A DNA stretch of 64,000 nucleotides, taken from positions 3,082,001-3,146,000 of the forward strand of contig NZ_CP121446.1 of NCBI RefSeq assembly GCF_030643905.1. Direction: 5' to 3'. The translations under genes were made by a program, and so were the position numbers. Position 1 is the stretch's first letter. Every line of letters begins with the position of its first letter. The DNA comes from Flavobacterium sp. IMCC34852. GTDB lineage: Bacteria > Bacteroidota > Bacteroidia > Flavobacteriales > Flavobacteriaceae. Below the pieces are notes generated by a model that made no database searches, was not told the DNA's origin, and saw only the letters and a program-made list of their open reading frames with translations. This document shows, in pieces, positions 28,654 through 30,413 of this stretch.

Positions 28654-28956
28654 TTATATATGTGTTCTAATTTTTTCCTTTCTTTTTACCAATAATCTTT
28701 CTAAAGATTCTGATGATAACTCTACTGCTTCCTCAAATGTTTTGCATTGTTTCTTTACCATAAAATCATCTCCCGGAACGTGAATTTTTACTTCTACTAC
28801 TTTATTTTCTTTCTCACTAGTATTATCAACCTTTAAAAAAACATCTGACGAAACTACTTTGTCGTAGAATTTTTCCAGTTTACCTAATCTTTCATTGATG
28901 AAATCAACCAGCTTTCTGTCGACAGTGAAATTTACTGCATGAACATTTACCTTCAT
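28654..28956 (-). CDS. hpf: Ribosome hibernation-promoting factor (short HPF/YfiA type)
   Basis: A 100-residue protein of the HPF/RaiA family: VNVHAVNFTVDRKLVDFINERLGKLEKFYDKVV, then VVEVKIHVPGDDFMVKKQCKTFEEAVELSSESLERLLVKRKEK, the usual beta-alpha-beta-alpha fold with a basic C-terminus. It binds the decoding region of the small subunit in starved cells and inactivates ribosomes. It lacks the long-HPF C-terminal dimerisation domain. It follows xerC after 32 bases, forming an rpsU-xerC-hpf neighbourhood. Confidence 0.92.
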   Translation of the reverse strand: MKVNVHAVNFTVDRKLVDFINERLGKLEKFYDKVVSSDVFLKVDNTSEKENKVVEVKIHVPGDDFMVKKQCKTFEEAVELSSESLERLLVKRKEKIRTHI

Positions 28957-29885: not shown

Positions 29886-29932
29886 AAAAAAACCGCGAGT
29901 ACCAAAGTTAACAAACTTTAATCACTCGCGGT
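29886..29932 (-). terminator. rpsU terminator
   Basis: On the minus strand ACCGCGAGT (29924-29932) pairs with ACTCGCGGT (29892-29900), with an inner weak stem (AAAGT/ACTTT) in the loop. TTTTTT follows and then directly the xerC ATG. Confidence 0.88.
29903..29910 (-). promoter_or_regulatory. Probable xerC -7 box inside the rpsU terminator loop
   Basis: TAACTTTG on the minus strand matches TAnnTTTG. Transcription would start near 29897, in the second arm of the terminator, giving a leader of about 12 bases. No TTG is found at the -33 distance, so one box only. Confidence 0.45.
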
Positions 29933-29954: not shown

Positions 29955-30149
29955 CTATCCTTCCAAACTGTCTCTCAATGTTTGAATGTAAGCTGCTTTT
30001 TGAATTTGCGCTCTTCTCACTACTGATGGCTTAGTAAACGCCTGACGCGCTCTAAGTTGTCTTACAGTTCCGGTTTTATCAAATTTTCTCTTGTAGCGCT
30101 TTAATGCTCTATCAATGTTTTCTCCGTCTTTAATGGGTATAATCAACAT
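29955..30149 (-). CDS. rpsU: 30S ribosomal protein bS21
   Basis: A 64-residue basic ribosomal protein (MLIIPIKDGENIDRALKRYKRKFDKTGTVRQLRARQAFTK, the typical S21 start). In Flavobacteriia S21 helps hide the anti-Shine-Dalgarno end of 16S rRNA, which is why most of their genes lack Shine-Dalgarno sequences. This gene is the exception: a perfect AGGAGGTG lies before its ATG (30158-30165). That fits published work on Flavobacterium johnsoniae, where ribosomes lacking S21 are proposed to translate rpsU preferentially. It is a single-gene unit with its own -7 box (30181-30188) and terminator. Confidence 0.96.
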   Translation of the reverse strand: MLIIPIKDGENIDRALKRYKRKFDKTGTVRQLRARQAFTKPSVVRRAQIQKAAYIQTLRDSLEG

Positions 30150-30157
30150 AATTTAGA

Positions 30158-30165
30158 CACCTCCT
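30158..30165 (-). promoter_or_regulatory. Perfect Shine-Dalgarno sequence of rpsU
   Basis: AGGAGGTG on the minus strand, with the AGGAGG core ten bases before the ATG. I saw no comparable sequence before the other genes of the window whose starts I inspected. It is the likely target of S21 autoregulation. Confidence 0.9.
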
Positions 30166-30180
30166 CTCATTTAGTGGGTG

Positions 30181-30188
30181 CAAAAGTA
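30181..30188 (-). promoter_or_regulatory. Probable -7 box of the rpsU promoter
   Basis: TACTTTTG on the minus strand matches TAnnTTTG and lies 31 bases before the ATG, just upstream of the Shine-Dalgarno sequence. No TTG at the usual -33 spacing. Confidence 0.45.
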
Positions 30189-30349: not shown

Positions 30350-30392
30350 AAAAGAAAAAAGGGATAAGTCACACAAAAAACTTATCCCTTTT
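30350..30392 (-). terminator. Terminator of the DUF2851 to acyl-CoA dehydrogenase operon
   Basis: AAAAGGGATAAGT (30357-30369) pairs perfectly with ACTTATCCCTTTT (30380-30392), 13 bp with a ten-base loop. On the minus strand it is followed by T-rich sequence. The same arms occur in the terminator at 35728-35763. Confidence 0.88.
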
Positions 30393-30413
30393 CACTTATT
30401 CCTTTTGCCTCTA

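Follow-up and report, generated by a model that had tools for sequence, protein, structure and literature searches.

The rpsU gene in the window, by which we mean the whole 64,000-nucleotide stretch of DNA analyzed (positions 3,082,001–3,146,000 of a 3.17-Mb single-contig genome), very probably carries an autoregulation element for bS21 of the kind known in Flavobacterium johnsoniae. An extended Shine-Dalgarno (SD) sequence precedes the gene, matches the organism's own 16S rRNA, is unique in the genome and is conserved in relatives, and the three proteins of the presumed 16S-tail pocket, bS21, bS18 and bS6, are all present. In the whole genome rpsU is the single bS21 copy found, and the closest named bS21, that of Flavobacterium silvisoli, is 100% identical to its product. 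The gene and its SD are located as follows:

29955–30149, minus strand: rpsU, ribosomal protein bS21, 64 amino acids, Tyr54 kept (Pfam PF01165)
30157–30168, minus strand: extended SD GAGAGGAGGTGT, forming 12 bp with the genome's own 16S tail (RNAduplex)

The sequence GAGAGGAGGTGT sits 7 nt 5′ of the rpsU ATG. The genome possesses three 16S genes, all of which end in GGAACACCTCCTTTCT, and therefore the rpsU complement amounts to 12 consecutive pairs, one of them G-U, with the tail AACACCUCCUUUCU (−21.3 kcal/mol, RNAduplex), exceeding the AGGAGGTG core (30158–30165, minus strand). The first-pass annotation, which had noted a perfect SD consisting of AGGAGGTG before rpsU, was right and had understated its case, the complement GAGAGGAGGTGT being longer. 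The energy is also below the −13 kcal/mol threshold used in PMC9976891, calculated there with free_scan and here with RNAduplex.

That annotation had further stated that no similar sequence precedes the other starts inspected and had proposed a genome-wide search for AGGAGG as a check. We scanned the complete genome with the pattern AGGAGG-N3-12-ATG (ATG starts only, GTG and TTG starts being left out of the scoring) and obtained 59 sites versus 104 for the reversed pattern, a difference which fits SD avoidance. The rpsU site ranks first of the 59 by energy; the runner-up (−17.7 kcal/mol) lies within another gene. A stop-to-stop frame of at least 100 codons contains 55 of the sites, the remaining four being rpsU, a tRNA-Asn gene, and two sites which precede ORFs of just 25 codons (L004, −16.4 kcal/mol) and 18 codons (L024, −11.1 kcal/mol). 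Two in-frame sites (−10.3 and −10.2 kcal/mol) come closest to where a gene might start, but both have in-frame ATGs upstream, and in both the motif codes for Gly-Gly. By our reading rpsU is thus the only census site located at a gene start, the other 58 not being convincing. As a gene start L004 was set aside, being an intergenic AGGAGG site with a 25-codon ORF after it, a very small ORF still being possible there; the site gave no Rfam match and no tRNA match, and its words GTCATTCCGAG...GGAATCTC resemble what is presumably a dispersed repeat.

Other samples of the genome were scored as well. In 211 ORF starts drawn from 304 kb (first ATG of frames of at least 120 aa, taken independently of annotation; rpsU is too short for inclusion) the strongest value was −9.0 kcal/mol, and none was at or below −10 versus one in a mock window placed farther upstream. 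Not one of 40,000 random 22-mers from 304 kb of the genome reached −16 (best −15.5). The census and the sampled starts together bear out the statement that no comparable SD precedes other starts, for the ATG starts covered. Within the 64-kb window AGGAGG was observed seven times, below the 15.1 expected. No depletion before ATG was seen for GGAGGT (128 versus 109 reversed) or GAGGTGT (30 versus 23 reversed), these being pattern counts outside the sets scored by energy. Two scans which tolerated mismatches, both left out of the gene ranking, showed no enrichment: 803 versus 797 reversed with an AUCACC-type tail (the genome's own is AACACC), and 89 versus 92 reversed in the second.

McNutt et al. 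(2023, PMC9976891) demonstrated autoregulation of bS21 in F. johnsoniae by ribosomes which lack this protein, and proposed that it is widespread in Bacteroidota. There, bS21-less ribosomes translate rpsU better, with faster initiation, and the long SD is required; an rpsU′-gfp fusion rises 3- to >4-fold upon bS21 loss or mutation. SDs are otherwise rare in that organism, and across 200 Flavobacteriales a genome most often has a single gene with an SD of this kind, approximately 80% of Flavobacteriales satisfying the rpsU criteria of the same study. In such a scheme bS21, bS18 and bS6 would hold the 16S tail in the complete 30S subunit, preventing it from pairing with SDs, while in bS21-less subunits the tail would be free to bind the 12-bp SD of the rpsU mRNA; these subunits would then synthesize bS21 until none of the pool lacks it. 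Tail capture and feedback of this kind in the present species is the natural reading by analogy with F. johnsoniae.

The components of the pocket can be recognized by homology. The rpsU product was compared with the S21 chain of PDB 7jil, which we take to be the F. johnsoniae ribosome: 59 of 63 aligned residues are identical and Tyr54 is kept, the Bacteroidia bS21 C-terminus that includes this residue being present. The best matches of bS18 and bS6 are likewise 7jil chains, nearly full length in a whole-chain comparison, and by eye no SD is evident in the stretch directly before rpsR. As in the anti-SD sequestration of Bacteroidia (Jha et al. 2021, as described in later papers), the 16S rRNA has the canonical CCUCC core and all three proteins are present, structural likeness being judged here by sequence matches to PDB 7jil. 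Three further entries (PDB 9oyv, 9ozz and 9p0e) have bS18 and bS6 sequences as in 7jil, are listed without its bS21, and may be bS21-less ribosomes from more recent work.

Elsewhere high initiation is usually achieved by means of a strong SD, and one might accordingly suppose that at rpsU it merely secures a high rate of translation, feedback being absent. We consider this very unlikely. A strong SD placed on F. johnsoniae tuf resulted in somewhat lower output in the wild type, and in higher output when bS21 was lost or altered (PMC9976891). Furthermore, the neighbouring tuf gene is without an SD (−0.5 kcal/mol), and AGGAGG before ATG is rarer in this genome than its reversed control, as the above counts demonstrate. 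The interpretation of the locus as a built-in bS21 sensor, put forward in the first-pass annotation, is supported because it matches the published F. johnsoniae genetics and biochemistry, and both the SD and the fact that it is unique are confirmed; by the same token the interpretation is not new, being already in print (McNutt et al. 2023, PMC9976891).

For comparison we assembled rpsU loci from relatives, the type of each bS21 being that of the closer of two reference proteins. Type-1 loci number 110: 79 whose leader could be read (80 were found, the majority titled Flavobacterium) and 31 from the same family (30 of them from other genera). L087, whose contig begins inside rpsU, was dropped before the counts, and L144–L148, which are type-2 copies, were dropped from the type-1 counts. 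Upstream of the gene in the window we predict:

30181–30188, minus strand: TACTTTTG, predicted sigma-A −7 element of the rpsU promoter (motif conserved in relatives)
30150–30176, minus strand: predicted 27-nt rpsU leader (start site placed from the −7 element, with its G at −5)

The Flavobacterium sigma-A −7 consensus is TAHHTTTG, with its G at −5 (PMC6847099). The putative element TACTTTTG lies 31 nt before the rpsU ATG, and TAnnTTTG is found no more than 60 nt from the ATG in all 110 related leaders, the stricter TAHHTTTG in 102 of them. Upstream of rpsU, the acyl-CoA dehydrogenase gene is followed by a 15-pair terminator-like hairpin (30356–30393, minus strand), which fits with rpsU having its own promoter. 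The resemblance to F. johnsoniae rpsU, as PMC9976891 presents it, extends to the same genus, a near-identical bS21, an extended SD at a single standout gene, a short leader and the rarity of SDs elsewhere. The species differs, and rpsU is transcribed alone there with a leader of 25 nt as opposed to the 27 nt predicted here from sequence.

Downstream of rpsU the following features were identified:

29892–29932, minus strand: predicted intrinsic-terminator hairpin in the rpsU–xerC interval (folding)
29886–29891, minus strand: T-run, six T, leading straight into the xerC start codon
28989–29885, minus strand: gene for a xerC-like tyrosine recombinase, without an SD (best NCBIfam TIGR02224, below its cut-off)
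28654–28956, minus strand: hpf, HPF/YfiA-family ribosome hibernation factor, without an SD

A simple terminator scan missed this structure, the probable reason being its length and its interruptions; it was found by folding. Requiring a single hairpin of −6 kcal/mol or better with at least six T in eight, at most 170 nt after rpsU, a hairpin plus T-run follows the gene in 109 of the 110 loci, and random windows drawn from these loci contain one in only 31 of 220 cases; with a cut-off of −10 kcal/mol or better the corresponding figures are 109/110 and 17/220. Most likely, rpsU would form a one-gene transcript which ends before xerC.

The first-pass annotation had proposed that ribosome state could affect the whole neighbourhood, so that the SD of rpsU would control a block consisting of rpsU, xerC and hpf. 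The gene order is indeed conserved, xerC having been found in 110/110 and hpf in 107/110 type-1 loci. Control of the block is nevertheless hardly credible. A hairpin and T-run separate rpsU from xerC, here and in nearly all of the relatives; no SD is present at xerC (−2.9 kcal/mol) or hpf (+1.6 kcal/mol); rpsU of F. johnsoniae is stated to be monocistronic (PMC9976891); and a candidate separate promoter for xerC occurs after rpsU in 72 of 79 loci, mostly of Flavobacterium. Because a terminator-like hairpin follows rpsU and the two downstream genes are without SDs, the SD circuit should end at rpsU, and this part of the annotation was not upheld.

The candidate promoter is situated within the hairpin itself:

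29903–29910, minus strand: TAACTTTG, −7-like element, candidate xerC-hpf promoter (fits TAHHTTTG; putative function)

Within 75 nt after rpsU, TAHHTTTG occurs on the sense strand in the 72 of 79 loci just mentioned and on the antisense strand in 16/79, these loci being related and not independent; shuffles lead one to expect 9.6 in the case of TAnnTTTG, and the count in random windows from these loci was 108/1580. Of 80 sequences (the window included), 67 have the looser TAnnTTTG within the hairpin, and the combination of motif and hairpin recurs in 16 of 20 stem-start classes, some of which are shifted versions of one another. In the second set of loci, 30 of which are from other genera, TAHHTTTG follows rpsU in just 5/31, and it is for this reason a genus-level feature at best. 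If TAACTTTG works, transcription of xerC would begin near 29898, giving an mRNA leader of approximately 13 nt which holds the 3′ arm of the hairpin alone, so that terminator and candidate promoter would share one sequence. The hairpin and the candidate xerC promoter are described here; the main text of PMC9976891 mentions neither xerC nor hpf.

The SD of rpsU is conserved throughout the loci assembled. Computed with the tail AACACCUCCUUUCU, as were the SD energies at all other loci, it ranges from −22.4 to −17.5 kcal/mol and lies below −13 in 110/110 type-1 loci; 20 further type-1 loci all gave −17.5 or −17.6, bringing the total with a strong SD to 130 of 130 readable loci. Other genera supply 50 of these (30 + 20), conservation within the genus being partly a reflection of shared descent. 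When 11 leaders were aligned as a sample, the SD core and the −7 element proved to be the most constant parts, though individual SD bases differ among relatives, as does the remainder of the leader; the distance from the end of GGAGG to the ATG is 10 nt in 91/110 loci. A loose pattern does pick up short SD-like words (59 sites), but the notion that the rpsU match is due to chance or is a by-product of composition can be dismissed, since the site is first genome-wide, no random 22-mer of 40,000 came near it, and the strong SD persists in every one of the relatives' loci though the leader varies.

Wherever the search located a 16S tail in the 149 same-family genomes (95 places, 62 genomes), it read GGCTGGAACACCTCCTTTCT. 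The pattern was unmatched in the other 87, some of which are drafts perhaps without rRNA and others single-contig genomes (e.g. G054, G062, G134 and G142), so that in the latter a tail outside the search pattern is possible. We also considered covariation of the SD with 16S position 1532–1533 (leaders have GGTGTC in Flavobacterium, and other genera have GGTGAT or GGTTAA). It is not supported, because the tail is identical at the 95 places in these 62 of 149 genomes.

By manual count, 65 of the 149 same-family genomes possess two or three bS21 matches. A single bS21 was found in 26/26 genomes of the genus sample, this genome included, and in the same order outside of the family three genomes have two matches, three have none and the others have one. 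The type-2 set comprises 59 copies among the matches listed (L193–L242 and L263–L271) in 58 genomes, namely 53 of the 65 multi-copy genomes and five with a single match; the extra copies of the other 12 multi-copy genomes fell outside the matches listed. Since type was assigned by the closer reference, the most divergent type-2 copies may not be one clade. All 59 of these listed copies are without an SD below −13 kcal/mol (best −9.8, next −5.5), as calculated with the 16S tail of Flavobacterium (observed in 62 of the 149 genomes). GGAGG and the variant core TGAGA are absent from the last 22 nt in 59/59, and Tyr54 is kept in 59/59 of the same matches listed. The type-1 partner rpsU had an SD in 20 out of the 20 cases fetched. 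According to the flanks fetched around the 59 copies, a sigma-70 gene precedes 32 of them, and 43 face a gene of the DUF2797 family; none of these flanks contained xerC. In five genomes of the family (L231, L238, L240, L266 and L271) a type-2-like bS21 occurs alone, with no SD-bearing rpsU, as if the circuit had been lost; the 16S-tail pattern was unmatched in this set, and contigs may be missing from drafts.

It is conceivable, though we regard it as somewhat doubtful, that in these relatives (not in the present genome) the second bS21 escapes the circuit. Type 2 keeps Tyr54 and so should still cover the anti-SD; a rise in bS21-2 would fill the bS21-less ribosomes, thereby silencing rpsU-1, and the cell could in this way change the type of its ribosomal bS21 by means of a gene which often adjoins a sigma-70 gene. 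In the part of the literature searched, we found no description of a second bS21 in Bacteroidota that is without an SD: Bacteroidota are not among the taxa to which the available text of PMC9976891 ascribes extra bS21, nor was such a gene found in the available portion of PMC3353972.

Phages also encode Bacteroidota-like bS21 proteins, mostly with Tyr54 (54 of 61; PMC9723584). Among 41 viral bS21 loci which we collected (L273–L313; one without a start) 40 were readable, and none of these 40 has an SD below −13 kcal/mol, the best being −11.7 with the Flavobacterium tail, and many of the viral genes on those contigs keep a Tyr54-like residue. This survey adds little to published work.

The rpsU locus adds a further species, together with its own 16S tail, to one of the few clear cases of specialized ribosomes in bacteria, and it indicates where the limit of the circuit should lie, before xerC and hpf. 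Lineages of the family with two bS21 genes, or with an SD-less one alone, should differ in the way in which the supply of bS21 is controlled, and would as such constitute a natural test.
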